From Mesodorylaimus sp. YZB2_4 (lineage: Eukaryota; Nematoda; Enoplea; Dorylaimida; Dorylaimidae): a stretch of 64,000 nucleotides of DNA. The DNA is taken from the NCBI GenBank assembly GCA_030248295.1, contig JASANH010000220.1, positions 248,001-312,000 of the forward strand, read 5' to 3'. The translations under genes were made by a program, and so were the position numbers. Positions 6,001 to 49,559 of this stretch are shown one piece after another. The stretch's first letter is position 1; each line of letters begins with the position of its first letter. The notes under the pieces were generated by a model, which did no database searches, was not told where the DNA came from, and saw only the letters and a program-made list of their open reading frames with translations.

Positions 6001-9000
6001 TTCTAATTTGCTAGCGATGAGAAAAACCGTAAACTCATCGCTTAGCTCAGCGTCGGTTCGACGATTATCATGAGGTGCTTGCCCGGTTCCCCCTGGTCCC
6101 TCGGACCGCGAAAAAGTTGTCAATATACGGATGGAATGGTCTGACTATCATAAAAACACTATACTTGGGATTTGTTTTATGTGCCAGTAAACCTACCAGA
6201 GAAAAACTTGATGACTCAGAAATGGTATCCAACTGATATACAGACGAGAAAGCCTTGCACAAGTACCGCCGGCTGGAAAGATACGAGTACAGTATATAAT
6301 CAAAGTACGACACTGCCCACCTTGCTCCAATACTGAAGCCACAAGACATTCAGATCAGTTGGCCTAGTTATAACACAACCCGCTTCGTTCCAATACCTCC
6401 TCACTCTGTCGAGGTCCATCCCTAGGCTAATCCCAAGTGAGCCCATTAGAGTAGGCAGCTCACACGCGAGTACCATTTTGCTTACCAGTGAGGCTAAATC
6501 TTCCTTCGTCAGCGCCCTTGTTGTTGCCTGAGATTGCATTGAAGAACTGGCGCCAGTCGTGTCCGCCTTCCACACACTGGCATTCGCATCGAGACCTTTT
6601 ACTTGTCCCTGCTCCTTTTGCGCCGCATAAGCATCAGCCATTTGCTGAAGATGTTGTTCAAGAAGCAAAGGATCGCTGGCAACTTTTGTAGGCACAGTAA
6701 AGGAGCCTCGATTGTCCAATTGTTTGCCTAAAATTAAGTGGCATCTCACAGGACTTCTTTGCTTGGAGACAAATAAGACATTTCGACTCGGAAAGCGAGT
6801 AAGCAGTCATTCATCATAGTCGCTCACTTTCGGCTTCCGGATCCTGATATGACGAATGCGATGGGTGTGGAGAAGTCGCGTCAGCTGGTCTGCCAACCAC
6901 GATTTTAACCAACGATTGGTCCTGTTGCCTGAGAATCATAGCCACCTGTTCCGACGACATTCCGTGTAAATGTACGTCGTTGATTTGCAATAAATGATCG
7001 CCCGGCCTCAGTCTGCCGTCCTAAAATCATACCTGCCAATTATAACCTCCACAAAATGACAATGCTTGTGTCACTCACTCTGTCCGCTGCACCACCAGCT
7101 AATATAGTTTTGACTACGACGCCTGTGCTACGTCCACCGACGATTCCGAAACCCAAACCGGAACCGTCGTTCTCGAGTTCGACGAGTTGAATTTGTGTCC
7201 AATCTCCATGGAGCTAAAAATGGGAAAATATAGTGACATACGGTGCGATTGGCTTCCCACACCCTCGCCCGCATCACTCCCAACAAAATGAGCCCATCCT
7301 GACCATGCCTACCACAATCTTAGCTCCGTTCTCGGCGCCCTCTGGACTTCGCTGGGGCGCTTGTCCAACCGCAGCCGACTGCTGCATTCGTTTCAAATAT
7401 TTGTACAACGAAAGACAATATCCGAGTACAATAACGTCCTTATTAAACAGTACCGAGTCATGACCGTTCATGGGTCGGCATTCAATGCGCTACTGTAACT
7501 AGGTCCAGCATACTCGCTTTGAACAGCAGAGAATAGTCACCACAACTAATTCAACCCACTCAGGAGGCTGATTGGAAATACGGAAAACTAAAATATTTTC
7601 CGAAGAATAATCACTTTTTATCAAGAATCAAGAGAGCGCAAAACGAGAAACGTCTGTGGAACAAATCTTACGTCAGTCGAGTAGACACTAGTTAGGACAA
7701 GTATCAATAGGACTGCTCGACGAAGAAACTCATCCACCGACCATAATTCGGTTTTCAAAGCACATGAAGCCAAACAGATACTTGTGAGAGCAACAAGCCA
7801 ACCTAGAGTCACAAGATGTCCACGTTTGGCTTCGAAGACGAAACGAACAGGCTCAATACTAAGCTCAAGAAGAAAGTAGAAGACCTCGAGTGTGGCCAAC
7901 GAGACCCGCATTCATTTGGTTGCATATAGAAACGGCTAAAATCGCCATTAGGTCGCAACGACAGAAATCGAAAGAGACGATGCGAAAATTCAATTTAGCC
8001 AATGTTACTGCACTGTGGCCACCATATCCCGACTCCACAGGGCCAGCCTTGTCCACAAGTCCCGCTGCTACATACACCCAAAATAGGACGAGGCGAACAA
8101 CATAAACGGCAGCCACCACTGCCTCGCCCATAAGTGCAGTATCGATCAACCATCGATTACTCCACCCACTCCGCCATAAGCGACAATCATCAGCCGAAAA
8201 ACGCTTTTTGATCCAGTTCGAAAACTCTGTTCCCTGGCCTGTGTAGTTATTTTCCGAGAAACTTCTTAGAGTGAACATTTCGTTTGAACACGATCATCAG
8301 GGACAGCTGCTCTTAAGCAATTCAAGCAATTGGTCCATATTAGCTCGTCAAATGCCATTGTTGCGAGAGCATGACAGCAGCACGCATGACTGAAACCCTG
8401 CCGGTTGCAGCTTGCATCACGGTTTCCTGACTATGATAACTGCACTGGTCAGTTTCTTGCCCATGCAAACGTTAAGCCTTCTTGCTCCGTTTTTCCCCTC
8501 TCCATATTACGGTTGCTGGGCACAAAGTATCGATAAAACAACAAACCAAAACCTAAAGGACTAGGCCATTATTCATAAACAGCTCAGTTTTAAAAGTGCT
8601 TACATTGAAGAACCAACAAAATGCTTTCTGGAACCATTTTAAAACTTTTAGCACCGCTATAAGAGTGGATGCTTACACGCTAAAGACGACCCGCTATGAA
8701 CCCTACGACTCGAAAAACATTCATTTTCGAGGTTACTAGCGATAACCTAAGATTGGAGCAGTTGTCAAAAAAGCTGGAAAAACCATCGAATCGCCTTTAA
8801 AACAAGCAAAGAGAATGAAACCTCAGGGAACTACATATTCTGGATCAGGAAGCTTTAAATTCAGTAAGCCTTCATTGAACTTCCGCTGTATTTTATAGCC
8901 GCCGACGAAGAGAAAATTCAGAAGGGCGAAAATGAGAATCGACGTGCACGAGCAGTCAACAATCGAGCTGTGAAAATGAGCGAATATATATAGCGAATAC

Positions 9001-12000
9001 AATAAACGAATGTACCGACAAGGAATAATATGCGATTTCGCACAACGTGATTTGAAGCTTACTCAGAAGCTATGACTCAGGCTACACAAAGAACATCGCT
9101 CGGCTTGGCTTTTTGCGAGTAAATGACTTTCACCTTTCCCAACCAGCCCATTGTCTCAAAGAGCGCATGGGACAGAGAAAATAGCAGTCCCTCAGCAGTC
9201 CGATACTTACCACCATATTATTGTCGCCGACTCCAATATCAGGGCGCAAAGACGTCGACGTAGACGCCGTATCACTCGCCAACGCGTAATCGGATAAGAA
9301 TCGAGGGGCCTTGGCGAATTGTCCTTTTGCCACGACCAAGTCCAATCGATGTCCTTTCTCGCCTTCAATCTTTTCTTGCTGCGAAAAGGTATCCGACTTC
9401 GAATGCACAATATTCTCGTAATCTCCTCGAGCTAATCCTCCCTCACTCTCGTCCACCGAATGGCCACTACTGACCAAGTGCAAGGACGAACACAGCCTCG
9501 GCGAACTGCCAAGTCCAATTTTCGAGGACAATAATTGGTTCAAGCTAACAGAAGATAATCCACCACCGGCCACCGGTCGACCGTCGACCACCAACAATTC
9601 ATCGCCCGCTTCTATTCGACCATCTCTAAAATGGAAGAGTATGCAAATTACATACTCAGAATGCACTACTTGAAAAACAATGCATAGTTATTCTTCCGCG
9701 ACCAAAACCCTTTTAGCCCGTTTTAACGCACTCATTTCCACTCTTCTCCCTTTTCCAAATTGCTCAACGCGCTCGAGGGCCAGACACAAACTCACACACG
9801 ACCATAATGCTTCAAAACACCCTCGGCGCCTCTGCGTTCTCGCGAATGCCAATGAGTGGCTTGAACCATTTTGTGCCGACTGATCTAAGAGAAAAACCCG
9901 CTGACAAAACCTTTTCGCATGGCCTTTAGCGCAACAGGTGTGACAAATGTCCTACTTAAAAACCGTCCATCGTTTTGGCAATGATTCCATTTCAATAAGA
10001 TAATTCTTTCGGCTGTTTCAATAAGCTCCTCTTCCAAACATCCCGCTCCTCATCAACATGACATTCTTAAACCAGCATTTTGCTTTCGCGCATTTCAAAA
10101 ATTATTGATCTCTAAAAAATCTTTTCCATTATCAAAAGAAAAAACAAATGAGGTCTTCCATTTTAGGCATCTACTGTACCGTAGCTACTACGTAGAGCCG
10201 CGTACTCCGAGGAAGAGTGATTTGTGCATGGCTCCCCAAGGATGTCACTCAACCGCCGAAGGGCTGGCTACGAAAAAAGCAACTGTTTTCATTTCTAAAC
10301 GACGAAAAAAATGACATATACGACCCTAGCGGGTCTAGCTAAAGGAAAGATATTCTCAACGGACTCGTGTCGGTCCTAGAAACGGTGCATGTTCCAACTC
10401 AAACGCCGCCAATCCCATCTTCTCTAGACTACTTTTTTTGCACAACCAGGGAATACTTTTTTAACGTCGACCTCTCGTTATCAGCTGAAGTTGGTATTTG
10501 CTTGATGGAAGTTGAATTCGTCAGGAACGGAGGCTCGGTGGCCATCGCCCATCCCCCCCACCTTTTCTGCACTACTCTACTTATCACCCCGCTCTGCTCG
10601 TACAAGCTGAAGGTGAAAAATGATTCTTCACAATGTCCAGTTTCTTATATGATGCTGGCCTTTTTTCATTTCCACCATGGTCTACATAATATGTTAGGCC
10701 CGAGTCCAGGCAGTCAAGTCGAGGCGACGAGGGAGTAACGAAAAACAAAATGAGCAGCGAATAAACGGAAGCGAGACTAGAAGAAAAAAGCATGCAATAG
10801 TGCTCGCAGCACATCGATTGAAGGGCGCTCGGACGGTCCATGCCGCTGCCACCTATTTCCGACTCAACCAAGCTTCAACGGCACCTGGCTCGGTCAACAC
10901 AAGTGTTCACACATTGTCCACGCAGGACAAGCTTCTTCTCATTATCGGCTGCACAATTCCCATCTAATTGCTGACACAAAGTGATAATTCTGATAAGGCC
11001 CAGCTAGTGTACCGGGCAGACGATCAATGACTCGAATGAGCACCCTCGTCTACGTAGAACTACTCCAATACGAGTAAGCTTTGCAATAATTTTCCAAAAA
11101 AGCTAGGCGGAAATACAATCTTTCATTGAGGTCCATCGATTGGGGGTGAGTTGAGGGAAGAGGGCATTCTACGGTAATTGCATCTTGCATGCACACAGCC
11201 AGTCGTTTCCGTTGGGAAATTTAGAATTAAACGACACAAATGAACAGTTGGATGGGACCTGTGCGAGGACTACTTGCGTCCAACGAAAGTAGCTTTTTGT
11301 TCCAAGCGCCCATAGCTTGGTACGAATAGGGAGAGAACTATGTACACACGAAAAGGCGCATGAACACGATGAAGCGGTTAATGAAGTTGGGAGCCACGTT
11401 CCGTCGGGCGGTCTGGCCTGCCCTGGTGGCGGTAAGGGATATACGTAAAACCAGCGGAAAATGTCAACCCCCGCTCGGATCCGGCTGAGGAGGTTTTCTT
11501 CCATCGACCTCTTCTGCTCCTGCCGCTGCTGGCTCATCTTCGCCTGGTCTTACTTTTAGCCAAAGCCTCGAGCCTCTTGGCACTACTCGATAGAACCTAC
11601 GGCTTTCTTTGCCGTCGCCGCTTTAGTCGATCGACGTCGAGCCGTTCGCGTTTTGCGAGGAGGCTTGGCCCACGGAGCAGCCGTCTCTCAATTAAGGCTC
11701 GTTACGCCAATCTCGTCTCCGCCAATTGGCCGACTGACGCTAAGAACGGAAACGGCAAAGAGGCAGCCGAAAATGCCACAAAAGCTACATTTACCAAAAA
11801 TGTCTACTTATTCGAGTCCTCAGGGCACTTCTGGATCGAAGTGACGAAATCCCACTTTTTTTCGTCTTCTCGTCGAACCGAATCGATTCAGTGGGACTAG
11901 TAGCCGAAAGCTCGAGCCCTCCGCAGCACTTTTCGTGCCCTCGGAAGTGGACATCAATCGCAGCTAATGATCGAGGAATGTCGAGCCGCAACGTAATCGG

Positions 12001-14410
12001 CCATAATCAACAAAGCGTAAACAGTAGAAAACACCCGCGCCCCTTTCTTCCGGCGCCGGCTCCCATCGGGGCTAGCTACCGCTCAGTGACGCAGAAGGTG
12101 GCTAGTGTTCGACGACAGCTCGCAGCTATATAAGCTCGAAGGCAGGCCAGTTTGCCCTATTATGTCCGCTTTGACAACGTTGGCCGACCGAACGCCAAGC
12201 AACTACACCGGAACGCGTTTACCTTACTGCCCAATCAATAATTCGCCAAGGCTCAAAAAGGTCCCGGCTAACGCGCCCCTACTGCCTGGTTATTGTGCAC
12301 CAGAGATGGAGCCAGAGTGTCATCAACGCCTCTACATAATACATACCAGCTCGAGCATAGCTGCCTCCAAATTAGCACTAAGACTGCAGCCCCCCCCCCC
12401 CCCAAATGGCCAGCCAACAGAAAAGGCAAAAGGCAACATGAGCGTCCGCTAATCCGTAAGCAGCTTCGATCTTTGCTCCCCTCCTCAATTATGCCCTCAC
12501 GCCCGCAGGCAGACATCGGAGAATGCAAACTATGCTCAACAAACAACACGTCCCTCGTTCGATTAGAAAATGACAGTAGTAGGAGACTCGCGCTTGGATC
12601 GGCTTCTTTGCTCTTTTTTATGTCCAATAGTGAAAGTGTTCTTCAACCAGTCGACCGTCCATTTCATCCAAGAAGCCGAAGCCTCGCTTCGACCTTCCTT
12701 TCATTTCTCTTAGCTCCCACGCGAACCAAGCTCCCAACGAGCAAGTATAGCTACGGCTGAAAGGTCTTACGTTAGCGTTGGCAACAAGGCAGGTAGTCCA
12801 CGTAACCAGTCCTCCAAACCTTGCTCATCAATAATAGACGCATCAAGGCGCATGCACCTCCCCTATTTCCTCCTACTAACTGCTAGCTGCCTTACACACC
12901 GCGCCCTCCCTCCATCCGCTCGAAACATTGCTCAAACATTCTGTAGGTGGCACATGAACCAGGAGTGGCTCCTCCGACCGACCACTTGGCCCAATCGTCC
13001 CGAGCCGATCGCAGTACCCGGCCGAATCGTATCGCTATCCAGCAAGCAGCCTCATCAGAACTGGTGGCAGCCGAATCATCCTCTGTAATGTTGCGCCACC
13101 CTCAGTGACACCTTCTCTCCAAGCTATTCAGTGTTGGCCTAATTATCTGTCCTTCCTGGTCCGCCTTCAGTTATGAGGTTATGGACGCGTGTCACAAACA
13201 CCCAGTCAACGTCAAATCATGCCCGTCATGTCAGAGGAAAGGGAAGAGGTGAATGGACGTTGCCCATGAAACGGCTTCAGCTGCGTCGGTCAGGTGGAAG
13301 GGGATTAAGACGAGGAGCTTGCTGTCAAAGGCATGTCGAGGGGATAGCAGTATTACCTTGCAATAAACCCATACGGAGAAACGTCAGCAACGAAAAGCGA
13401 TTTCTCTTTATCGATCAGCGTCCAACCAGGGTCCGCCCCTTCCGTTGGTATCATTAACGTAACTCGCCGCATCTAAGAATAGAAAAAATTGGTACATCAA
13501 CGCGCTACACTGCGTTGATTGCACGCCCTGCTACTAGACTCATTCATCTTCTGGGTCAGACCACGACGAGTCACATAAGTACATGGGGTGTGTAAGCATG
13601 CGGGCGGCAAGTGGCGCCGGAAGTGCAACTCTTACTCCAGACACGACCTTGAGTGCGCGCACTGTGCTAGACCTAATATGACCAACGCGTGACCATATAT
13701 TGCAATCAGTCGCTCAGTAATGCTGATTATTATTCAACTATGTATATCTCATGTCGGTGTATCTCCCACGAGACACGATATGCCCACCGCTCACGCATAT
13801 GTTAGCTTTCCAAGAAGACCTGAGAGACCACTCCCGATGCAAGTGCCAGTCTAATGTGACATCGTCAGTCACTCCCCATGGTTCCCTTTCTATTCGCATC
13901 ATGCCATTCATTCATCACTGTATTTTTAATTCTGTCATATCATTCCGAACTTGAGCAAAAAGAGCTTACCTCTCGACCTGGTCTCTCTGAGAGCTTCGTA
14001 CTTGCGCCGTTTCGATGACCATTCGCGTCATGACTCATATTGCCTCTCAAACTTGCATTCGGACTCGTTTGCTCGGAAAAACTTATTTGCTCTTTCAAAG
14101 TTCGAATCGACTCCTAAAAAGCATATTAAACTAAACCACAAAATCCCCTAAAAACATCAGTTTTTTTACCTGAACTGTAAGATTATGTTTGAAAATAGGA
14201 TTCTCCAACAATTGTATGAGCTTTCTGAGATCCCTTCTCAAATCCTGATTTCGATTTCTGTAATCATGATCGATGCCAGAAACGTCCAGCTGGCGTTCTA
14301 ATGTCCTTAATAAATCCACGGCGGCCTCGGCTTCTATAAAAGAATGCGTAAAATTAGCACATTTCAGGCTTGGACCAACTCGATTAAGCACAGTGCATAC
14401 TCGTCCACAT
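1..14410 (-). CDS. PATJ: PATJ/MPDZ-like multi-PDZ polarity scaffold (3' end beyond window)
   Basis: Multi-PDZ scaffold of the Crumbs/tight-junction type, expected at the cell cortex linking membrane proteins. Exons read on the minus strand: 14401-14410 (possible start), 14170-14333, 9211-9625, 7079-7213, 6828-7020, 6486-6727, 4313-4436, 1642-1733, 1170-1308, 520-1106, 240-458 and 1-182. All assigned junctions from 9625 leftwards keep phase. The 14170-14333 exon encodes an L27 domain ([12 protein letters not shown] to [14 protein letters not shown]). PDZ domains follow: a partial one ([15 protein letters not shown]), then [10 protein letters not shown] with [15 protein letters not shown], then TGLGIAV with [15 protein letters not shown], then FGIALEG with [12 protein letters not shown], then RGLGFSV with [15 protein letters not shown]. 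The first half of PDZ1 was not found between 9626 and 14169, so at least one exon is missing from this model. The 10-base first exon is a guess from phase. L27 plus the order of PDZ domains favours PATJ/MPDZ over other PDZ proteins. Confidence 0.85.
1734..4312 (-). other. PATJ intron, no exon seen
   Basis: Phase and PDZ continuity run directly from the exon ending at 4313 to the exon starting at 1733. The interior holds only short open frames with no family resemblance, and I see no repeat structure. Confidence 0.5.
4437..6485 (-). other. PATJ intron, no exon seen
   Basis: The flanking exons join in phase 0 and link a linker region to the third PDZ domain. Nothing between them is recognisable. 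Confidence 0.5.
7546..7911 (-). CDS. TMEM216/TMEM17-family-like small membrane protein, model incomplete
   Basis: Two exons, 7672-7911 and 7546-7587, join in phase 0 through a GTAAGA...TTTTAG intron and end at TAG. The 93-residue reading holds [19 protein letters not shown], which resembles the IEVIRLFFGTKGNL region of TMEM216, a ciliary transition-zone membrane protein, followed by two hydrophobic helices. Known family members have four helices and about 145 residues, so the N-terminal part is missing here. A hydrophobic segment ([19 protein letters not shown]) lies just upstream near 8070-8130 in another frame, but a TGA precedes the 7911 ATG and I could not join the two cleanly. Either an exon was missed or the gene is damaged. 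It sits inside a PATJ intron on the same strand. The family assignment rests on one short motif and hydrophobicity. Confidence 0.4.
9626..14169 (-). other. Long PATJ 5' intron region with unassigned exon(s)
   Basis: The L27 exon ends in phase 0, but the next assigned exon begins with the last base of a codon in mid-PDZ1. At least one exon carrying the start of PDZ1 must therefore lie here. No candidate was convincing: open stretches at 11169-11537, 12268-12627 and around 13000-13090 have splice-like borders but no PDZ sequence. A 14-base C tract is at 12390-12403. Confidence 0.5.
12390..12403. repeat. Poly-C tract (14)
   Basis: An uninterrupted run of 14 C inside the PATJ 5' intron region. 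It is one of six similar C/G tracts in the window. Confidence 0.95.
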
Positions 14411-15253
14411 GGCTCCACCAACCCAAGTGTCGTCACTATCCAAAGCACGTACGTCACAGAGAAAGCCAGTCTGTCTCAAGAATAGGACGTCATCCGGCTT
14501 GAGAATTCGCCGACCGATTACCACCCGAAATGGGTCACATGACAAAAAGAGCGAGGACCACGTCCGGCCAGTATCGAAATGAGTTTTCGCAAAAACTCTC
14601 CAAAGAGATGGCGAAAGTGTCTTGAGAATGGAAGGCGCCTGCTTTAGTTTATCACGTCGCTTTACGTCAGTGCCGAAGCATATGAGTGCCAGCGGAGCTC
14701 ACTTCTTCTCTATTCTCTTATGGGCCAGATCGGCACCATTTGTCACTTCTTCCATTATATTCGAGCTGAGCAACCAGCACCTCCTTACAAGCCCGTCTAG
14801 GAGCCGAGCCAAACGGGCTGCTAACCCAAGCTAACCACTTGCACACGGGCCAAAACTTAGCTACGTACAAAGGGCCGAAAGGCAGGCGCACTCATCTCAA
14901 TGGCTACTCGGTCTGACGCCATGCCCGTGCCAACCAACACCGACACTCGAACAACCCAAGCAAACCCACCAACGAAAACGACGGCAAACACACTCGTGGT
15001 AACATTTTACATAACTTCGTACTACCCACCGGCCAACACCAAACCCTGCCAGTCATCCCACCCATCAAAACCAAATGTGCAAAACATTCAAACTGTTTTA
15101 TTTTCCATCAAAATCGGGAAAAAAGATGGAATTCTCTGGCTGCCCACTAAAATCCATTTACTTTTCACAAGTTCTAGAATCTACTTGATCACCCTAAAGC
15201 TCATCCAGATTCACCCAATCATAACGTATCAGCTCCTCTTTTCTCATTGCCAA
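14411..15253. other. Intergenic spacer between tandem minus-strand genes
   Basis: Lies between the PATJ start and the stop codon of the JmjC fusion gene. No exon, RNA gene or repeat recognised. It should hold the 3' UTR of the fusion gene and the PATJ promoter. Confidence 0.5.
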
Positions 15254-18200
15254 CTAGTCGCACGACTCGCCAGCATTGTTGACCCTCCGAGCCGCTTGCC
15301 ACTCGCCATCACCACCCGTGGGATTCAAGACCAAATCCCCGATCCAAGCGTGCAGATAATCGGAAGACATTTGTTTCTTTGACAGGCTTTGATCGCTCCT
15401 CTGCGTCTGAGCCTAAAAGCGGAAGAAAAGTGTGATAGTGACTTCCCAATAGGTCATTATTGTACGATGACTTATACCCCAGCATCGACCGAACACCGTT
15501 TTTGCACCGAACCGAACCTTACCAAACTTTTTCTCAAATTTCACCGAGCCCGAACCGAACCGAACCGAATTTCCAATGTTCACCCATATATTACATCCTC
15601 CATAGAGTTATCATCACCTATATCGGGTGTGCCTTAAAGATTGACCCTCTCATGTTTCGTCTTCTTCCACCCTAATATGAAAGTTATCGCCGTAGTCAGC
15701 TGTAAGCGGTAAGCGGTACTGGCAATACTACTTCCATATAAACGGAGTGATTGGTTGTACCTTTACCCAAAACGACCAAATTTCTGAGGTCTTGGCTTTT
15801 CATTTCTTGGCATGCAAGCAACTGTATAATATGATATCCACTAATGGACCGCCTGATGCAGAATTGAATGATCTATGTGTTTGTGCTAGTTAGTGTAGGT
15901 TTTAAAAACGCGACTGCCTCTGAAGAAAACTAACCATTTCTGTGAGGGTCATTCTTTATGGCGCACCCAATATTTTCAAAATATCTAGAAGTCAGTCCTT
16001 TCTAACCACATTTTAAATTAACATTTTGGAGATAATTAAGAAAGAACCAGATAATTAAGAAAAAAGGACAGCGAAATTCATAGCTGAAACGAAATCTCAA
16101 ACAAAATTACCGTATTTCCACCAACAAAACAGGAAATTCAAAATCGTTTGTTCGGTTCGGTGGTTCGGTTCGGTTCGGTAAAAATCGCCAGTCCGGTGGT
16201 TCAGTCGATGTTGGCTCATACCTACTCCCAATAAACTTACCTGCTGTTCAGCTTTCTCATTTCCAACCGGAAATCGATCAGCGCCCGAGCTCTTCCTGTT
16301 TGCACGCCTAGCCACAGACATCATCGCAGGAGGAGGCTTGCGACCACGGCCCTTCTGTCGCTCATTAGAAGTGCCAGCAGACTGCGTAGATGACGCTAAC
16401 TTTTGCAAATTCTTGCGTCCTCCGCCCTAAAACAAAAATATGTTGCTAACTGGAATAATACACCGCTGAAAATATGTTGTTTTGACACAATACTGTGTCA
16501 ACACCGACAGCATTCTGGGCTGGATAGATTGAATTCTGGATGGGCTAAAATTCTCAAATCGACCTAATTACAGTGCCCTAGTGTTTCATCTGCCTGTCGC
16601 CACTAGGGTCTTCTCCCCGCTCTCTCCCGGCGGCCACTGGCGATTAAGTGATGCAGGACACTTACAAGACCAGAGCTAGTCTTTTTGGTGTCTTCAGTCG
16701 AGTCACGCCTAATAAGGTATGATTAGCACAATCCGACCACACCAGCACCTACTACTGTACAGCAAAGGGCGCAAAGGACAAATAACTGATCAGAAGTATG
16801 TGCACAGCAATTAATAAATCGGAAAAAACTGCGAGGACCATGTTCCCAAACCAATGATATGCAGTACCTCCCAACTCCCTCCTGCTAGAGCGTACCTTAG
16901 ACTTAGCAAGCTTCTTGGACAAATCGAATACGTCTTCCACACATTCTAACGACCAATTCTTCGTCATGAAGTTTGGTCGTATCTTCGACTTTGGCAATTG
17001 AGAAATTTCCTCCATCTTTTCCCGCGTGTAGGTTTTGATAACGACTTTTTGATCATTTTCTTTCCCATCCGATTTCCCCACGCACTCAACACCTTGCTTA
17101 GTTTCAGCACCGGCAGCAGATGCGCGTAGTCCGTCCTCGGTCACCGTAAGATCGAAAGTGACCATCTTAGTCGCCATATAATCATAATCGCCTTGGCTGC
17201 CGCTTTGATAGGTTTCTTTCTGCGCATTTATCGACACGCTTCCTTCGAACTGATCCACAGACTGACCCGTGCATGGATCGACAACTTGCAGAACCTTTTT
17301 CTCACGTCGAGGCAGCATTTGAGAACACTGCGACGAGTCCTGAAGCGCAACAGCAGTTTTCATTTCCAGAGCCCAATTGTCGCCACTGTCGCACAAGCCA
17401 AACGCGGAAACCCGAAGCGGATTATGTTGACGCACTTGTCTTGGCCGCGCATCCGATAACTCCGCAGATGACGACAGGGACTGGTCATGCGTGGAATGAG
17501 TAATCAGCGTATTATCAGCACCACTCGTATAGGCGGACAGACTGTACTGCGCGGTGCCGAATCGCGTATACTGAGGTGCTGATGACTGCAGACCAGATGA
17601 CATTGAAACGTACGAGTTCGGAGAATAAACGCCATGAATTAGACCTAAGAAATAATAGATCAGAAATCTAGAATAATCTTGTAAAACAAACAAAAGGGTA
17701 CCCTGAGGCGAATACGTTCCAGATGAAGAATTCATGAGTGGATTCGAAGCCGAATAACTGAACGGAATCGACGACAGTAGACTCGATACTGGAGTTGCTT
17801 GGTTGGACGGCTGGTTGTGGCCAATCAATGATAAGCCAGCATCGAACGGATGACTCGATGAAGAAGACATAATACCGAGAATGGAATTCGCATCTGGTCT
17901 GGACGTCGCATCGCTATGATAGACACCCAATCCAATATCAGGACTCTCCACAGTCCCGCGGAAGTGAATTGGCGAATGTTGATGCAACAAAGGACTATCC
18001 ACACTACCGGCGACCACACCGCGGGGCAACTGGAATTTCTTACGAATCATTTCAATGCAACGAAACGCATAAAATCGGCTGTACTGTTCGGGCAAATCTT
18101 CCAATTGCTTCATGGCTTTTTCTATGCCTTGGAAAGCACGTTGAGCAGGCACTAGATCCGAATTTCCATATACATCTTTGGCATCATAATAAACGTCCCG

Positions 18201-20852
18201 TATGGCAGTAGATCGCCAGAAAACATTGACAGCCAACGAAAAATCGTCAGCAACCACATTGTGAAACCATAAAGCTGTAAAAAGACGGACTGCACTCAGC
18301 ACATATTCACTTGACGAGTTGCAACTCACCTGGGATAAACAGAATATCACCCGGCACCATTCGAGCTCGATAACGCTTTGCATTAACAAATAGAGGATAT
18401 TGCGATAAATCAGGGTTGTCCACATCAATAACAGCCGATTTGTCCCCTAAAAACGTGGCATACAAGTATGGGCAAGGTCGGCTGGGTTAGAGGGGGGGGG
18501 GGGGGGTTGGGAGACGCGGGGGAGGGGAAGGGGGTAGGGATCAGATCGCCTATAAGCCTGATCTAATCGCGAGTGAGATAGGTCAGGCCAGGTCGGTCAG
18601 GTCTGGGTCGAGTGAGTGAGTTGAAAGGCTGTTTACATATAGTACTGTAGGCTGGCTGGACAAATTGGCCCGTGCTTGGACGCCAGGGCTTGGCCCAGCC
18701 CCGATACAATTTAATCGCTTTTGCTTGCTTCCTTTTCTTTTTTCCTGCTGACCTGAGGTAGGGGGCAGAAGGGTTCAGTGTCCTGGCCGGCCCAACGGGG
18801 GGGGGGGGGGGTTACCCCCTGCCTCCCCCGTTGCCCATACTTGGTGGCATACACAATCAGACCAACGTTGAGCATAAAGTTGGCGCGCTTACCGCTCATA
18901 TAAAGATAGGGAGCATCAGCAGGATCGAACAATACAACCGATTTACGTCCAACGATTTGCAACAGGATATTGTCCATGATCTGAAAAGAAACTAAGAGAA
19001 GTTACGGCCGCAAGAAGGCCTAAGAACTGAATCTTACATCGTAATGTGTCCACAATCGGACACCAGCCGATCCGCCTCGCAATACGGTGGAGAACAAACG
19101 TTCCTTGAAGAAAATATTCGGGATGTGAACATCCGGAGCCAGTTCTGGAAAATGTTTGCCGAATAAGGCAGCCTCTTTTCGCGGATCGTCGCCAAGGGCA
19201 CGCAAGTAATATTTTTCCTTCTACAATGACAAGTCATTTTAACAAAAAGTCAGCCAAGTGCTGATTGTCTTTCAAAAACTTACTTCACAAATGAAGTACT
19301 CGGCCAATTTTTCCTGGGAAACGCATCTGTCCAGAAATTTGTGGAATGTCAGAGTCCTGAAAAAGTAGGGTGCTGATTCATCAGAAAATGAAACCTCATG
19401 AACTCAATCACTTGTATTGAAAATTCTTATTCAAGAAATCCATATCGTTCGTTGGACATACGTGAACCGTGACCCGTTTATCTTCAGGGATACGGCTTTT
19501 GAGATATTCGGGGTCTTTCCACAGCCAAAGGCATGGTCCGACAGGCAGTCCACGAATGACGACTGGACGAGTTCCCTGCAGAGACGAAGCATGATAACTA
19601 GCATAAACACGAAGCCATGATGAAGGCGGCACACGAGCACGTATACTCTTTTCCCTAGCACTGGGAGACATCTACCTGTAGGTAGGTGGAGACACCGTGT
19701 ACCTAAACATGAAGCGCACAGAACGCTGTTGAGCTAAAGGAATAACCATACCAATGGAAAGGAGGTGCTAGTATCTTTAGTCACTACGCTGACGATAGAA
19801 TTAGACACAAGAGATTTTGTTCACTCGGTTTAAGGATGCTCTACTCTCCTTTTGGACGTCCAGGTGAAACTGTCCAGATCGATAAGAATGTTATTGGGGT
19901 CACTACGCAGAAATATTTCGTTCCGTTGCATACAAGACAAGGAGCAACATAAACACTTTCATAAAATCACTTAGCTGAGGCTTAGTTGTTCATGCTTCCA
20001 CGCCATTTCTCTGTGCTTGTCGCGATAGTCGCTGAGTATCCAGCGTGATAGCCCGTAACAAGCATTACATCCAGTTGGTCTGTCTTTGTTTTTATGGTTT
20101 CTTTCTAATATTGAGCAATATTGTTGACGTAAAAACATCATGTTTCGCTACATGAGGGTCTTCTACGCGGGTAACCCCCCCCCCCCCCGGTAGTATGCTA
20201 TACGGGGTGTCTCTGTCATTGATGTTTTTAAGGTGTCTGTTAGTGAGAGGAATACGGCTCGAACCTAACTCAGCTACTGGGGAAGAATCGGACACGATCC
20301 ATGCAAAGTTATTTGAAAATGGTGATCAGCATGAATCGCTTATCGTAAAGTACCATATGGGTCTCAACTGCGCATCATACAGTAGGTCACCATGATGCTG
20401 TATTTCAGAGTTTGAGTTAGATACTGCAGTAATTCTTTTCGTACGTACGTGGAAAAGACGTGGGCCTGCAGTAACGCCGACTTAGGACCCACTGATGACA
20501 TGACCCAACCAACCAAGCATCTCTCCTCTCTCGCTTCGAAATTCAAGGCACAATCTAAGGCGCTTTTGCAGTTTGTCCCCCCAATCTCTTAAATCCAGTC
20601 CATCCTAGCCTAAGCCTAAGGCTAAGATCAAGCCTAAATCCAGCCTATCCAGCCTAAGCCTAAGCCTATTAGGAGAAAAAGTGCCCAATCTAACAATACT
20701 GTAAGACCCTCAGTACATATTTCGACCTACAGTGCCTCCCCAGATGCAGGTAGGCCGCAGCAGAACAAAGCGATATATGTTAATTGACTTACCAAAGTGA
20801 CTTTGCTTGCGTCCGCCGTATGAATAACTTCCACTTCAATATCCGACTCCAT
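15254..20852 (-). CDS. TYW5-like JmjC dioxygenase fused in frame to an eIF4E-binding-like tail
   Basis: Exons on the minus strand: 20793-20852, 19412-19575, 19284-19356, 19038-19220, 18893-18980, 18330-18446, 17702-18274, 16896-17644, 16241-16426 and 15254-15412. They sum to 2352 bases, giving about 783 residues. The first half matches TYW5, the Fe(II)/2-oxoglutarate hydroxylase of tRNA wybutosine. It has [11 protein letters not shown], then WTHYD (HxD metal ligands), [19 protein letters not shown] and ALWFHNVV (second histidine). TYW5 normally ends near residue 315, but here no stop follows. The frame runs on through a Ser-rich disordered region to [13 protein letters not shown] and [20 protein letters not shown]. 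The latter aligns with the YTKEELL...LP.SK.RP region of eIF4E-transporter and eIF4G-type proteins. The tail then becomes Lys/Arg-rich and ends near [17 protein letters not shown] 43-base candidate mini-exon near 16640-16690 was left out because it breaks the frame. The JmjC part is firm. The tail identity is inference. Confidence 0.8.
15485..16215. mobile_element. CCGAA-rich foldback element in the last intron of the JmjC fusion gene
   Basis: The left end reads AGCATCGACCGAAC and then runs of CCGAA. The right end, read in reverse, gives AACATCGACTGAAC, then the same spacer, then ACCGAACCGAAC. The arms are imperfect inverted repeats of roughly 60-100 bases. The middle has no coding frame. ATACC occurs just outside both ends and could be a short target duplication. 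It accounts for most of the 828-base final intron (15413-16240), whose neighbours are mostly 51-65 bases. Superfamily unknown. Confidence 0.6.
18463..18843. mobile_element. hAT-type MITE, 381 bases, intact ends
   Basis: Perfect 13-base terminal inverted repeats, CAAGTATGGGCAA at 18463-18475 and its complement at 18831-18843. They are flanked by a perfect 8-base duplication GTGGCATA at 18455-18462 and 18844-18851. An 8-base duplication with a CA...AA terminus fits the hAT superfamily. There is no transposase frame. Each end carries a 15-base poly-G tract (18492-18506 and 18797-18811). The insertion is inside the intron between exons 18893-18980 and 18330-18446. Removing the element and one duplication leaves a 57-base intron, the size of its neighbours. 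Confidence 0.92.
20175..20188. repeat. Poly-C tract (14), MITE-like flank
   Basis: Fourteen C preceded by GGGTAA. The reverse complement of the right-hand tract in the 18463-18843 MITE reads the same way, so this may be a fragment of a related copy. Confidence 0.85.
20603..20673. repeat. Interstitial telomere-like array, GCCTAA units
   Basis: About eight exact or decayed GCCTAA units in about 70 bases, including two tandem pairs and the terminal form GCCTATTAGG. The reverse complement TTAGGC is the canonical nematode telomere unit. It lies in the first intron of the JmjC fusion gene. Confidence 0.65.
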
Positions 20853-22778
20853 TGCTTCGCATTCGTTTTATGTCCGAGAATGTTTCACAGGACTGCAGTT
20901 CACAACCAACCAGCCATCAGATCAGAATCCGAGATCGAATGTCGATCGTAGGGTAACTTAAAAACCAAACTAGCGCCTTCTAGCAGACAACTATCAGGTT
21001 CAATTAAATGTAGCGGTAGATTTAAAATAAATTTTTAATTCACACGGATTCAGACCGCGAGTAGGGTGCGTAGCAACACGGGCGTAGCAGTTCGCTTACT
21101 GCTTTACATGTTTCTATTCGGCAATTCTCATCGCCAGCTTGCCGCAATTTCGTAAACTACAAGTCTACATTACGTAAATTCCGTTCGCTCCTTTGGCAGC
21201 GTGCAGACCGTATATGGTATGAAACCAGGGTGCATATGAGCTAATCGATATTATGGCGTGTTGTGGCTAGTCAGTAGCTGCACTTGGTGCCGAGACAGGA
21301 AGTCCTACGCGACCAGTTGGCATGTACCACTCTGGATGAGCCCATATTTGGCATTCGGCTGGCTGCCGACACTGTCAGGCCCTGGTGATAAAGTGGTCAA
21401 TACTGGTTGCCCCCGAATAGATCATGTATATGCCGATCCCACCATATACGGTAGGCTTGACGTATTAGCAGGGCCAGCGGCCCTTCGTCTGGCGGGCGTT
21501 TGATGATCGAGCGGCCAGCATTGTGCCATGCTCAATGGGGGATGGCTTGTACACGCACACCAGCTTACGCCCTTGCAAGGGAAGTGGTAGGAAGGACGGA
21601 TGTGTGGATAGGCTGTCCTATCGCTCTTATTGTCGTGCCACGTACACGTTTGAGAATGAAAAAGCTAACCATTTATATCCAAAGCAAACTGTTGTCACGT
21701 CAGCTGTTTGCTTGCTATTCTCAAATGAGTTTGCTCTTTGCTGGCTCGGCTCAAACCCGCATTGCGCCCTGTCCCATTCTCAAAGGTGGGACCAGGCACT
21801 GACGTGAGTCAGGGCTTGTCGTAAGTACTGCCCACGTGTCTTCCTAGAAACGACGTGCAGGGCCGAGACGATCATCGAGCCCGTTCGCAGACTGGAGGGG
21901 CAGTCCGTGGGGACTGCGACAACCACGAGGACACATTTGACAAGTCCCATCATTTTTTCCTCGGCCAATAGGCCTTTTTCGTCTTCCGCATCGAAAGCAC
22001 TCGTCAGTTCTTTGATGACGAATGCCATTTGCGCGCGGAGCCTCTGCTCTTGATGACCATGGAGCAGGGAGGGATGGCGATTGAGGCCGCGGGCGGCATG
22101 GCAGGTGGTGGTTTCCGTATTTGTTGTAGGTAGGGTGTTCGAAGGTGGTTTTTTACGGTTATATTCGCCCTTTTTTATTGAACCTTATCCGACCTACGAA
22201 GGCCAAAGAAACCAGTTGTCTTCTTCGAATCCTATTCCAGCAAAGAAAACGCGCTTATTCCAGATGGGAGGAGCGGGGGTTTGTATGTAAATGTAAGAAA
22301 ATATTTTCCACCTATTTCTATGGCTCGGTTTCGTTTCCCTTCGACTGGTTGGCTGGGAGGGGAAGGGAGGGGAGGGGGAGAGAAGAGGCGATTCGAGAGG
22401 CGTCGGTCGTTTGGTTAGGGATTTAGCAGAGGGATCATGTTCGCCTTGACTAAAGTCGAAGTCTGTTTTGAGAGATTTTCAAAATCGAGGCGTTTTCTCT
22501 TTTCAACAAATTCGTGTCATTGTATTCCTTTTCTTTGCTCCTATGTTAGGTGCCAATGCCATATGGTGGCTTTGTAAACACTTTTCTCGGTAGCCGTCGA
22601 AAACGTTGTCTCGTGTCTGTCTGTCAAAGGTGTCATTTCTGAGGCTCAACTCCATTAGTGCTGGTATTATGATCGAGGTCAACAAAGTCCAATTTCGCTT
22701 TTCAATTTAGCGTAGCGCGTTTTTCGAAAAAAGCTAAGCATTTCTAGAATGCTATGAGCGGAAATTACATTTCGACCT
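20853..22778. other. Divergent intergenic region between the JmjC fusion gene and KCC
   Basis: About 1.9 kb between two genes transcribed away from each other, so it should hold both promoters. Short open frames at 21258-21807 and 22081-22426 show no family resemblance. G-rich purine tracts occur around 22355-22390. Confidence 0.5.
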
Positions 22779-22794
22779 CATTTTTCCATTTCAG
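22779..22794 (+). promoter_or_regulatory. Splice acceptor upstream of the KCC start (trans-splice or 5' UTR intron)
   Basis: A pyrimidine-rich tract ending TTTCAG stops 20 bases before the KCC ATG. No upstream exon is evident. In nematodes this arrangement commonly marks spliced-leader addition. A 5' UTR intron would look the same. Confidence 0.5.
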
Positions 22795-22814
22795 GCGTTC
22801 ATTCGATTGGCGAT

Positions 22815-25800
22815 ATGGCCGATGCGAAAAATAAAGCTTCAAGTAAGGATGGAGGCGCTGGTCCGTTCTCGCCAATCGCCACCCCACCTGCCGTTGTTCG
22901 TCAACCGTCGACGACGGAATCATCGACGTCGACGGCATCGAAGAAAGTGCGGATGTCAGATGTGGCCAAACAACCCGCTCGACGTCAAAATACGACTGGG
23001 TCCGATGCATCGGTCACAGTGGACATGAATCCTCGTCCAATGCGTCAATCGTCAGTTATTGGTCAATCGGACGATGCATCAATTCCTAAAGTGGCTTTTG
23101 TATCGCAAAAAAGCTACGCTTCTCAATGCGGTTTATCATTGTACGATGAAGATACGTCCAGCATGCCCACATTAGCCGCCTATCTACGTTCGTTCACAAT
23201 TCCTGGACCCACCGAACACGAAGCCCAGGAACGAGAAGAATCTTCTATAAAAACGAAAGGAAAGGTAATTCTAGTCGTTCTTGTCAGGGAGGGGCACTAA
23301 AATCATTTGGTCCCTAGCGGGAGTCGAACTCCACCTCAAACCAGCAGCAGGAGTAGAGGAAGCTAACTTTCTGTCCCTGATAGTTTCTCTTTCAGAAAAC
23401 GAAACTAGGTACTTTATTGGGCGTTTATTTGCCGACTATTCAACATATTCTCGGCGTCCAGATGTTCCTGCGTCTGGTGTGGATTGTGGGCGTCGGTGGT
23501 GTGCTCGAATCGTTCGCTATGGTTTTTCTGTGTTGCTTATGCGTAAGTTTGATGTTTTGCTTGGATGGTCCCTGGGCAATATGTGCTTAGGGTTCGGATC
23601 CGAGGACAACTTGGAGTGAGACTGGACTTGGATCCAAAGTGAATTCCTTTCCGTTTTAGACATTTCTAACTAGCATTTCAATTTCGGCTATCGCAACTAA
23701 TGGCGTTATTGACAGTGAGTTATTGCGTTGTATGTTTGCTCTACAGATTTAAGCAATTTTTTTCAGGTGGTGGAGCGTATTTTATGATCTCACGCAATTT
23801 AGGCGCAGAATTCGGTGGAGCTGTCGGCGTCTTGTACTACCTGGCCAATGCTGTCGCTACAGCGATGTACCTTGTCGGTGGTGTGGAAATCTTACTGGTA
23901 AGTCCTTGTTCGGTGGGGGGAGGGATGTTGCACGTCAAACCCTTCCTTCGCTCAATGAGGTGGCCATTTGAAAGTCACGTTGACACCCCTTCAATTCTCT
24001 CTTAGATGTATATCGCGCCCGATTTGCCTCAATTCGGTGACCCTGCGAATCACAACGAAGCGGACTTATTCAATAACTTTCGCGTCTACGCCAGCGGTCT
24101 GCTGCTCATAGAATTCATTATCGTTGCTATGGGTGTCAAATTTGTGCAATTCTTCGCCCCTATTTCCTTAGCTTGCGTGGTCGTATCAATTTTATCCGTC
24201 TATGCTGGAGCGTTCGCCGCTAATCCAGACAACAGTCCCATGTAAGTAGTGAATGGTTCCTTGCATTCTGATGACAAGAGGACCTATTGCCTCAGGGAAT
24301 TATTTAAAAGAAAGACGATGGTCTGGTCTTTTTTTCGGGAGCTCTCAACCTGTCCGTTAGCTTGATGAGAAGAAAACTGTCGGTTTTTCATTAAAATCGA
24401 GTTCCATTTTGTCCTCTGAATTCTCTTGCGTCAGATCAGACACGAGAATGGATTAAACCCTCTCGTTATCCTTGTCAAGTGGCAGCACTTTGAGATTGGG
24501 ACTGAATGGTTTTTCTGTGTTATATCCTGCTTTCGATGAATCTGAAAAAGAAATCAATACGCTACCCTCTTTTTTGGGTGTTCTTGTCGCTGTTGAGCTC
24601 TTCTCTCAGAGCAGGTTTATAGATTTTCTCTTGGCTGGCCATTCTAAATTGACAGCTTCTGCGTCCAGTGTCTGGTTGAGGGGCTCTGGTGGACTGATCT
24701 TGTCTTATACTCCGCTGTATGTAATTACTAGGAAGCACACGTGAGGGCGGCGGATGGGCTTTGATGACTAGCTGGGTGGGGCAAGTTCATAGCTTCGTAT
24801 AAACTAATGATAGTCATGAGTCATAGACTGAGGGGTGGGCTAATGAAGTGGGTTTTTTTATTTCAGGGTATGCATGCTCGGTGAGAAATTGTTAAAGCCG
24901 TCCACATATTCTTGGCCCAATGGCACAGCGGTATGCGATAAAAGCATTGTGGATGGCCCGTTATGGAATAATTATTGCGGAAATTCGAGTGCCGAATCGG
25001 GTGAACCCGTATGCGATGCATATTTCATGTCGGCCAATGTGTCTTATGTTCCTGGAATACCAGGCTTCTTTGATGGCACCATCAAAAGTAAGGCTGTGGG
25101 ATATTTCGTAATTAGTAGAATTTTCGAAATTGAATGGCTTTTAGATAATTTATGGCCGACATATCTTGAATATGGTCATGCTGCACCTGGAACAGAAGGC
25201 GATACTCATTTCGAAGTGACGCAAGATATCAAGACAACGTTTTTTATAATTTTGGCCATCTTTTTCCCATCCGTCACTGGCATATTTACTGGAGCTAATA
25301 TGTCTGGTAAGTAGCGGTGTGGGTTCGAGTGTTGGTGGTATTTCAGATTTTTTGGTAATTTTAGGTGATCTGAAAGATGCACAAAAATCTTTGCCGATTG
25401 GAACGATCGCTGCTCAGCTGACCACATCATTCGTCTACTTGTCCTTCGTGCTTGTGTTCGGTGGCACGATTCATGGGGCGTTGCTGAGAGACAAGTAAGC
25501 GCTCTTATTGCAGCAATGGCTGGGATAAAGAGTGTAAAGTGGGTGTGGTTTTTAAGGTATGGTGATAGTTTAAATCGGAGCATGGTGGTGGCGAAATTAG
25601 CTTGGCCAAATGAATGGGTACTCCTCGTTGGCTCGTTCACGTCCACGTTCGGAGCTGCCTTGCAATGTCTTTGCAGTAAGTGGTGGAGTGGTGCGACAGA
25701 TCAGTCATAAGGTGAAAATGGTTTTATTGCAGGTGCCCCTCGATTATTGCAATCGATCGCCAAGGATGACGTTATTCCATTTTTACGGCCGTTTAGTGTT

Positions 25801-28230
25801 GTGACGAAACGGAACGAGCCGCTGAGGGCTTTATTCCTTTCAACATTCATTGCCGAAATTGCAGTGTTGATCGGTGGGATTGATTACGTAAGTAGATGGC
25901 GAGTCTGGGCTTGTTTCTTCTAAACATGGTATTTCTTTAACAGATCGCACCTGTGGTAGATTTCTTCTTTCTTATGTGCTACTGTTTCGTCAATTTGGTC
26001 TGCGCCTTACAAACGTTGCTCAACGCTCCAAATTGGCGTCCTCGATTTCGTTTTTATCACTGGAGCCTCTCTTTATTGGGAGCGATTCTATGCTTGTTCA
26101 TCATGTTCTCCACGTTTTGGTATTTCGCTATCGTCGTACTGGCTTTGTGCGCTTCAATTTACAAGTACATCGAATACAAGGGGTAAGCATTGATGGACTG
26201 GTGGAGCTTCTGTTCTGACAAATGTTATTGTACTTTGCAGGGCCAAGAAAGAGTGGGGCGATGGTATTCGCGGGCTGGCCTTATCGACTGCGCAGTACAG
26301 TCTGTTACGAGTCGAAGAAAGTCATATGCATCCGAAGAATTGGAGGCCTCAATTGTTGGTCTTGGTCAAATTGAACGACTCGGAGAAGGAAGCCAATTCG
26401 AAGCTGCTGCAATTGGCTGGTCAGTTGAAAGCTGGACAAGGCCTGACCATCGTCGCAACTATGATCGAAGGTGATACGCGCGTGCAACAAGATCGGGAGC
26501 GAGCGGAATTGGATCGAGAGAAATTGAAATATATGATGAGGGAGCAGAAGGTCAAAGGATTCGTTCACGTGGTCTTATGCCAGCACGCTTCGGAGAACGT
26601 TGGTACTTTGATTCAGTGCATTGGAATCGGTGGATTACGTCCGAATACGGTCATGGTCAATTGGCCCACTCATTGGAGAGATAATCTGGCCAAACATAAC
26701 GATGAACATTTGAATTTTGTTGGTGAGTTTTCGACGAATTTTGTTAAATGTTTGGAAGCGTTTAAACGACCTTTTTTAGATGCCATACATCGAGCGGTGG
26801 CCATGGACATTTGCCTGCTTGTTCCAAAAGGCATTGTGGATTTCCCCGAGTATTCGGATCGATTGGTGGGCACGATCGATGTGTGGTGGATTATGCACGA
26901 TGGTGGTTTGCTGATCCTGCTGCCATTCTTGCTCAAACAACACAAGATATGGCGCCAGTGCAAATTGCGCGTCTTCGCCGTGGCTCAACTTCAAGACAAT
27001 AGTGTGAAGATGAAACAGGATCTTCAAAGATGGGTTTATCAATTGCGTATCGACGCCGTTGTGGACGTGGTCGAATTTTCTGATAACGCTATTTCAGCCT
27101 ACACTTATGAACGCACGCTGATGATGGAAGAACGTACAAAGTTGGTTCACGATTACAAGCTGTCAAGGGTGGACATGGAACACGAGGTATGTGTTTTTAT
27201 GATTTTCGTCTGATCTTTTCTGCAATTTTTTATGTTTTAGCCGCAATTTGTTGTTGATCGTGTTCGAAGTCACGTGAATTTGCGTAGTTTGGATCTAAGT
27301 AGCCCTCGTCATAGCGGCGCCGATGGTCGTTTGGTGCACGGTGACGGGCATTCATTATCGGTGCCTCATACAACAGCTCTGGCCTCGAATCCGACGAAGC
27401 GAGTCGGTTTTAAGCTTTCATTTGCGAAAAGCCCGAAAGCTTCGCGCACTTACGAAGTTCAACCAGTCGTCGATTCGCGCAAGTCGGACAGCGCCTGCGA
27501 GAAGTCGCCATTGGCGCCTGGCTCACCGTCGGGCCATGACACGACGGGAGAACGGAAACGACCATCGTTCCATATTGCCCCTCGAAAGAACCGTGGCAAG
27601 GGATCGCACGAAGGTAACATTTCCGAACCGTCTAGCCCAGCTGATAAGTCGCCAAAGGAAGGCGCTGGCACTGATAGATCCGTGTTCACGTTCAGTCCAC
27701 GCGATTGGGCAAACGAATTTGAGAAACACGAATTCGATGAGAATGATGACGAACCTGAAAAAAATGACGACCCTTTCTCAGCTGATCTTCAGCTAAAAGC
27801 TACACAAGAAGTGCCAACTTTCGTTATCGGCTCCACAGCGTTTCCAACTTCGGGTGACGTTCCGAGAACTCCTACTCAACCAAACGGACCTGCGTCATTG
27901 GCTCCGGATTCAAGCGTCAAAAGTATCGATTCAAAATTTGCTAACTTGGATAAAAAGAAAGTGAGAAAAATGCATTCTGCAGTCAAGCTGAATCGGGTAA
28001 GCCGTCCAAATCATTTTAGTCGTGCACGGTGTACGAGCACGTTCTATTTTTAGGCTATTCAAGAAAAGTCTGCCGACAGTCAACTGGTCGTAATCAATCT
28101 GCCAAGGCCGCCTCGAGTTCGCGAAGGATTAGGAAATTATATGGATTATTTAGAAGCAATGACGGACGGTCTGTCTCGAGTTTTGCTGGTACGTGGCACG
28201 GGTAGGGAAGTGATTACAATTTATTCGTGA
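22815..28230 (+). CDS. kcc: K-Cl cotransporter (SLC12A4-7/KCC type)
   Basis: Electroneutral K+/Cl- exporter of the plasma membrane. Fifteen exons: 22815-23264, 23396-23542, 23660-23714, 23767-23897, 24006-24241, 24867-25087, 25145-25306, 25365-25494, 25557-25675, 25733-25887, 25944-26182, 26241-26722, 26780-27186, 27241-27996 and 28054-28230. They sum to 3867 bases, 1288 residues. After a Ser/Thr-rich N-terminus come [19 protein letters not shown] (TM1), SISAIATNG (CCC signature), [20 protein letters not shown], and a large cysteine-containing loop with NGT, NSS and NVS glycosylation sites, typical of KCC rather than NKCC. Then follow [31 protein letters not shown] and the cytosolic [10 protein letters not shown] domain. 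The end REVITIYS is the KCC C-terminus. Odd point: a long low-complexity insertion (about residues 990-1210) precedes the conserved [12 protein letters not shown]. An AATAAA lies at 28473-28478. Confidence 0.96.
23273..23390 (-). repeat. tRNA-like SINE fragment in KCC intron 1
   Basis: Read on the minus strand, GAGTTCGACTCCC matches a Pol III B box. It is followed by AAATGATTTTAGTG, loosely similar to the AAATCATTTCGTGTAAAATG body of the SINE copies at 33 and 44 kb. The upstream A box is weak. Confidence 0.4.
24242..24866 (+). other. Longest KCC intron (625 bases)
   Basis: Donor GTAAGT at 24242 and acceptor TTTCAG before 24867 join exons in phase. Open frame 24472-24744 inside it has no similarity to the family and is probably incidental. 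Confidence 0.7.
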
Positions 28231-48896: not shown

Positions 48897-49037
48897 TTTG
48901 CCCGATTTCCGATTTCGCTTCTCACGACACCGACACCTAACCTGTCGCCGAGAACGTCGACCATGCACTGAACGAGCACACAGTGCGGGTGTACAGAACA
49001 GTGGCAGGCAAAAAATGTAAAGTGTATGGGTGTACAT

Positions 49038-49559
49038 AAAATCCTTGGCTCACCCTAGGACAGACTAGGGCTGACCAGAGGATGGCTCAAGCCACAGGAA
49101 CACCCATGCAGTCCACGGACGTTGTTCGTGCCGGCCCTGACTTAGGAGAGGCAGACCGGTATCTAACCAGTGCGCCGATAGGCTGGAGAGCATAGTTCAT
49201 GCCTATTACATACAGTATAGCAACAGTATTCAGTGATCTTTCGGCGATTATTGACATAGTTGCACATGCATGCAGTTTGCTGTCATACTTTGCTGTGAGT
49301 GTAAAGGGTCTTTTGGCAATCGATCCTGTTAGCTACCCCAAAGGGCTTCATGACGACCTTCCAACCACTGAGCAGGTCGGAAAACTTGGTCGTTTTATAT
49401 CTCTGTGGAACATCTTTTCTGATCACTGCCTCAAACAATTTTAAAATACAGTGGGTTAGGGCCCTGTCCCAGTTCGCCACGTGACTTCCAGCCCGTCTTG
49501 CCCCATAGCGGCAAGAAGTCATATGATGAACGAGCCCGTGGTGGTAACTAATATGATAA
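49038..49559. other. Intergenic, nothing firm
   Basis: Short repeat-like CCTAGG-containing sequence near 49056. No gene. Confidence 0.4.

Follow-up and report, generated by a model that had tools for sequence, protein, structure and literature searches.

We report that a minus-strand gene of the window, i.e., the whole 64,000-nucleotide stretch of DNA that was analyzed, encodes a TYW5-type JmjC hydroxylase core that continues in frame into a 469-residue C-terminal tail. Judged by gene structure and coding signal, the fusion of core and tail is real, and we hold this with high confidence. We tentatively propose that the tail may act as a docking tail for translation-initiation proteins, the candidate partners being suggested by short peptide resemblances; a docking tail and an ordinary lineage-specific extension of the enzyme appear about equally likely.

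The gene model consists of 783 amino acids from ten exons between 20852 and 15254, whose borders are GT-AG and whose phases agree. Six codons 5' of the first ATG there is an in-frame stop, the gene's own stop codon ends at 15254, and a candidate poly(A) signal (AATAAA, 15097-15102, minus strand) is located ~150 nt past the stop codon. The 783 residues, the end at 15254, and the exon phases, frame, and coordinates all agree with those described in the earlier note. The core, residues 1-314 (18018-20852, minus strand), is encoded by the first six exons and the beginning of exon 7 (20852-20793, 19575-19412, 19356-19284, 19220-19038, 18980-18893, 18446-18330, and 18274-18018). The tail (15254-18017, minus strand) is encoded by the rest of exon 7, which extends to 17702, and by exons 8-10 (17644-16896, 16426-16241, and 15412-15254, the last including the stop codon).

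Residues 23-308 matched human TYW5 (3al5_A) at an E value of 6.7e-92 in a PDB sequence search, and Cupin_8 was detected in the core at an E value of 1.9e-41 in Pfam; Cupin_8, JmjC_2, and JmjC were the only Pfam matches across the 783 residues. Pairwise alignment of the core with human TYW5 showed 49% identity over 288 columns. The HxD...H metal site is kept, with H158, D160, and H233 aligned to the human Fe(II) ligands, which we take to be His160, Asp162, and His235 in the human numbering. The identity of the core as TYW5, proposed from the letters in the earlier note, is therefore upheld by the nearly full-length Cupin_8 and 3al5 matches and by the kept metal ligands. These results support a TYW5-type Fe(II)/2-oxoglutarate hydroxylase, predicted to hydroxylate a wybutosine precursor on tRNA-Phe.

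The tail is long and mostly disordered. Residues 315-520 are rich in Ser (43 of 206), residues 675-731 are basic (12 Lys or Arg vs 4 Asp or Glu), and single-sequence AlphaFold prediction of exon 8 alone gave a pLDDT of 32; a helix was drawn at residues 627-634 in this prediction, where its confidence is meaningless. This composition would suit an ordinary TYW5 that was extended in one lineage by a disordered C-terminal region. On this view, the peptide likenesses described below arose by chance or have decayed, and the tail does something else or nothing specific; its basic last third might, for instance, touch RNA or tRNA weakly. The database searches point the same way. The tail, searched whole and as two pieces, had no Pfam match at E<=10 with HMMER filters on, filters that discard most matches above 0.1; no 4E-T family was found elsewhere in the protein with the same settings, and the MIF4G domain was absent from the 783 residues in Pfam. 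Pfam presumably contains a 4E-T family. Accordingly, the similarity to eIF4E-binding proteins that had been expected to appear in a profile search did not appear among the curated families of Pfam at E<=10. A PDB sequence search with the eIF4E-like segment and with the whole tail returned unrelated chains only, and the PABP-like segment returned nothing at E<=10; i.e., no eIF4E- or PABP-binding chain was matched, in a search that is weak for short peptides, as the human 4E-T peptide itself reaches the fly 4E-T chain at an E value of 0.65 only. Using the protein and a two-sequence TYW5 alignment as queries, we found no tail-bearing orthologue in prokaryote and viral contig collections, a scope that says little about animals.

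Two short peptides stand on the other side. The first lies in a 20-residue segment (17033-16974) that the earlier note had aligned with the eIF4E-binding segment of 4E-T/eIF4G-type proteins, and corresponds to a candidate 4E-T-like eIF4E-binding helix and linker at residues 625-643 (16974-17030, minus strand). We compared ungapped BLOSUM62 scores of five reference peptides with those obtained on shuffles of the tail. We take the letters used here for human 4E-T to be those of the reference sequence; the positions at which they agree with print are Tyr30 and the Leu pair (PMC3950672) and Cys26 and Cys50. Human 4E-T scored 60 at residue 625, and none of 20,000 tail shuffles scored as high (Gumbel p of 1.7e-6, a value that a blind search of a whole proteome, with an estimated ten million 26-mers and an expectation above 10, would not find significant). 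When the other binders were scored singly, 300 of 20,000 shuffles reached the score of 4E-BP1, 3,021 of 20,000 that of fly 4E-T, and 3,967 of 20,000 that of Thor; neither fly 4E-T alone nor Thor alone was significant against the tail shuffles. A matrix of all four sequences was reached by none of 50,000 shuffles (Gumbel 3.3e-5), and a three-binder matrix without human 4E-T was reached by 13 of 50,000.

The four peptides (22-26 residues each) all matched best at residue 625 when compared with the whole 783-residue protein, and did so in the same register. We do not count this agreement among binders as independent evidence, since peptides simulated with an equal human 4E-T score matched the other three almost as well (P of 0.35, 0.085, and 0.054). 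Averages that include human 4E-T were reached by 249 of 20,000 shuffles for the helix positions alone and by 989 of 20,000 for the linker alone. Among the nine-residue helices taken singly, those of human 4E-T and Thor chose residue 625, and those of fly 4E-T, 4E-BP1, and eIF4G preferred other places. In a six-frame comparison of all open-frame segments of at least 30 amino acids in the window, residue 625 was the top of 56,888 sites, at 31.5 vs 19.5 for the next.

The canonical YxxxxL-hydrophobic motif is absent at residue 625, where YTREKME has Met for Leu and Glu for the hydrophobic residue, exactly as had been pointed out. Regular matches to this motif occur only at residues 264 (YGNSDLV) and 416 (YSPQGLI); both were rejected as sites, as they show no further resemblance and we estimate that about one chance match is expected. 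For three eIF4E-binding peptides of eIF4G starting at Tyr, residue 625 ranked 3 to 5, and for a fourth, KKRYDREFLLGF, it was outside the top three sites. We therefore rejected eIF4G as a source of the eIF4E-like site, its eIF4E-binding peptide preferring other places, and the eIF4G half of the likeness claimed for this segment was not sustained. The 4E-T half stood as a sequence statistic (0 of 20,000 and 0 of 50,000 shuffles) but not as a Pfam match nor at the two motif positions, and it weakened to the 13 of 50,000 given above once human 4E-T was left out. The noncanonical helix positions, and support that leans heavily on one sequence, the human 4E-T letters taken as above, favor the ordinary extension.

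The sequence of Thor bears on these two positions. Thor binds eIF4E, and its chain 4ue8_B carries Met-Lys in place of the Leu and the hydrophobic residue; therefore, the candidate site at residue 625 could bind as well. In the published measurements concerned, Thor has an affinity of 2.26 uM with the canonical motif alone and of 1.4 nM with the non-canonical segment added, and the canonical motif of 4E-T alone reaches 16 nM (PMC4164784). In human 4E-T, eIF4E is lost upon Ala substitution at Tyr30 alone or at Tyr and both Leu, according to the section on these mutants (PMC3950672). From this comparison, the candidate site would probably need a second contact to bind eIF4E. Residues 644-660 (16923-16973, minus strand) are a candidate non-canonical segment for the lateral surface of eIF4E, chosen by position only, because 4E-T and Thor have non-canonical eIF4E-binding segments C-terminal to the motif, as described in the same work (PMC4164784).

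The second peptide, residues 531-546 (17265-17312, minus strand), resembles the PABP-binding peptide of eIF4G. The earlier note had seen an eIF4G reminiscence in a 10-residue stretch, residues 540-549, which overlaps this peptide; VVDPCTG is part of a 16-residue match, so the hint proved stronger than thought, pointing to the PABP-binding peptide and not to the eIF4E site. Residues 531-546 align ungapped with PKRERKTIRIRDPNQG of human eIF4G, letters that are confirmed by chain 1lj2_C and, from the sixth letter on, by chain 4f02_C. We take 4f02 to be a PABP complex and 1lj2 a rotavirus NSP3 complex. The eIF4G peptide of 1lj2 found its best match at residue 531 with a local score of 44, a value that 1 shuffle of the tail in 5,000 also attained; the reversed tail scored 22 and the core 24. 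The ungapped comparison over 27 amino acids was weaker, with 116 of 20,000 shuffles as high. When only the 16 matching residues of the peptide were used, this site was the top of 62,560 six-frame sites in the window (44 vs 29 for the next).

Taken as a docking tail, the protein might work as follows. As in 4E-T, residues 625-643 would lay a helix and linker against the back of eIF4E, and neighboring contacts would make up for the weakened helix positions, as they do in Thor of the fly. An eIF4G-like contact with PABP may be added by residues 531-546. Through the tail, the enzyme would then stay close to mRNAs that are capped and polyadenylated, or the tail would be a competitor of eIF4G, and tRNA hydroxylation might in this way be coupled to translation. 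That a single tail carries both eIF4E- and PABP-binding sites, much as an eIF4G N-terminus would if it lacked the domains that recruit the ribosome, is a bolder reading of the two peptides, which we consider rather unlikely. If both sites are true, an oxygen-dependent tRNA-anticodon hydroxylase would be docked on the mRNA closed loop, or would act as an oxygen-linked competitor of eIF4G.

The order of a PABP-like and then an eIF4E-like peptide is presumably the order in eIF4G. The p-values above overstate the case because both peptides were picked in hindsight, out of all that is known. The case is raised again because the two matches point to neighboring parts of one machine, in eIF4G order. 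Against an ordinary extension, therefore, stand two separate translation-factor-like peptides in the tail of one translation-related enzyme, each the top of the window by a wide margin; for it stand the composition, the empty family searches, and the altered helix positions. We weigh the two accounts about evenly.

The end of the JmjC domain (~18020) and the first 105 tail codons lie within one open exon, 18274-17702, and 352 stop-free codons run from 18010 through exon 8, for which the chance at the tail's own base composition is ~2e-8. The codon model was trained on 2,505 codons, i.e., this core and nine open stretches of the window picked by eye. With this model, the in-frame log-likelihoods of tail exons 7, 8, 9, and 10 were +18.9, +48.9, +12.3, and +11.4, respectively, the value for exon 7 covering its 105 tail codons in the enzyme's frame. 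The other two frames were negative for every tail exon, and the four introns longer than 200 nt were negative in all frames. The core's own score of +86.9 is circular, as the core belongs to the training set. A smaller model, for which the 314 codons of the core were the sole training set, did not favor the gene frame at the start of the tail, i.e., in two blocks of 60 codons each that make up its first 120 residues. The in-frame run-on past the TYW5 end that had been read from the sequence thus holds, with no stop, a shared exon, and codon statistics that favor the frame in four tail exons.

An account in which there are two products or genes, TYW5 mostly ending early and the tail being separate or joined in only some splice forms, draws on the splice sites. 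These were scored with a matrix built from this gene's nine introns, and the modelled donor at 17701 scored 4.7 when part of its own training set and 0.0 when left out. A donor-like site at 18043 (TTC/GTAAGA), at the end of the core, scored 3.4 and thus exceeds the left-out donor, which tempers our confidence in the fusion; some transcripts may use it. An acceptor-like site at 18127 (4.3), within the core and upstream of the ATG near 17870, would also suit a separate tail; among the ten best listed, it is the sole one above 0 upstream of this ATG. However, the core's end and the tail's start share one open exon, the tail codons of exon 7 score in the enzyme's frame, and none of exon 7's ten best donors within 18018-17702 is above 1.6. 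The intron 17701-17645 is 57 nt long and open in frame; its retention would add 19 residues and leave the fusion unbroken, and thus the fusion does not depend on donor 17701. We therefore regard separate products as improbable.

A possible 43-nt micro-exon (16666-16708, minus strand; acceptor 10.2, donor 16665 at 8.1) gives the same account a further point, offering an alternative protein end past the eIF4E-like segment. Two upstream donors are available to it, a strong one at 16895 (7.6) and a very weak one at 16902 (-3.7). Joined to 16895, the micro-exon leads to a protein that stops after residue 670; joined to 16902, it gives an in-frame protein of 795 amino acids with 14 residues encoded by the micro-exon. 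The eIF4E-like segment is retained with either splicing, and the micro-exon is a possible switch between tail forms.

An artefact of sequencing or assembly that fused TYW5 with an unrelated gene is very improbable: 14-15 nt runs of C or G, typical assembly-slip sites, occur in introns at 18492, 18797, and 20175, but the junction exon has none of these runs, the reading frame continues, and no N occurs in the window. As a side observation, C or G runs of 13-15 nt were located at 18492-18506, 18797-18811, 20175-20188, 12390-12403, 61493-61507, and 63164-63176. The first two lie in the same intron of the TYW5 gene (18892-18447), which is 446 nt long and has a G+C content of 0.58; the gene's five short introns have G+C contents of 0.26-0.46.

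The surroundings of the gene were also inspected. A cation-chloride cotransporter gene (22758-28050, plus strand, extent guessed) is divergent from the TYW5 gene; its open stretch 26194-27210 matched the SLC12 family at an E value of 1.3e-34 in Pfam, and Pfam matched neither of two more open stretches that we assigned to it as exons. A PDZ domain was found at 403-1119 (E value of 1.4e-8 in Pfam). By eye, the stretches 4104-4553, 9133-9687, and 14134-14475 resemble PDZ or L27 domains, with no Pfam match, and 403-14475 on the minus strand (extent guessed) is possibly one long multi-PDZ gene. A bZIP factor at 37410-38621 (minus strand; bZIP_2 E value of 4.6e-16) has a long low-complexity stretch before its basic zipper. 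An open frame of 342 amino acids at 48024-49049 (minus strand) encodes a single hydrophobic stretch and, after it, a long region rich in Thr, and its product looks like a membrane-anchored mucin-like protein. A C-type lectin match in the window fell just below the Pfam cut-off. Taken with the SLC12, PDZ, and bZIP genes, it gives the surroundings an animal-like character. Rfam scans at gathering thresholds and tRNA scans of the window were empty.

TYW5 makes hydroxywybutosine on tRNA-Phe; in the part of a review that deals with it, its function is called unclear, and its knock-down in HeLa cells gave no gross phenotype (PMC4682802). Because of this lack of a gross phenotype, a docking role would be a new lead. 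Of 5.39 million open papers, none was retrieved for TYW5 and eIF4E combined with fusion, and among the titles returned for TYW5 with nematode none was about a fusion. If the docking reading is true, the fusion to initiation-factor docking sites hints at where and when hydroxywybutosine matters, and an oxygen- and iron-dependent enzyme would be tied to cap-dependent translation. If the peptides prove unconserved, the protein is merely an extended TYW5.

A fusion with a TYW5-like domain is already known, and the version with an initiation-factor-like tail appears to be new. In Trypanosoma brucei, TYW4 has a JmjC (TYW5-like) extension, so that a TYW5-like domain is likewise chained to another protein; in the account of it given there, the partner is the wybutosine enzyme TYW4 and not an initiation-factor-like tail (PMC4417183). 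Human TYW5 (PDB 3al5/3al6) shares the JmjC core, with identical metal-site residues and the 49% identity over 288 columns noted above; its solved chain stops approximately where the present tail starts, the match extending to residue 331 of 338.

Among the eIF4E binders, 4E-T/EIF4ENIF1 (fly chain 4ue9_B; human sequence taken as above) shares an ungapped register of 19 residues, Tyr...Ser-Lys/Arg-x-Arg-Pro, with the candidate segment. However, it has Leu-Leu where Met-Glu occurs here, and here the host is an enzyme and the tail is without a Pfam family. Thor, the Drosophila 4E-BP (4ue8_B), likewise has Met and then a charged residue, yet it binds eIF4E; it is a dedicated inhibitor, and its overall score to the window is not significant. 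With the eIF4G peptide (1lj2_C, 4f02_C), the tail has the pattern P-[KR]-R-E-[RK]-K-x(5)-DP-x-x-G in common, whereas the likeness to eIF4G ends after 16 residues, the MIF4G domain is missing here, and the eIF4E-binding peptide of eIF4G is not best at residue 625.
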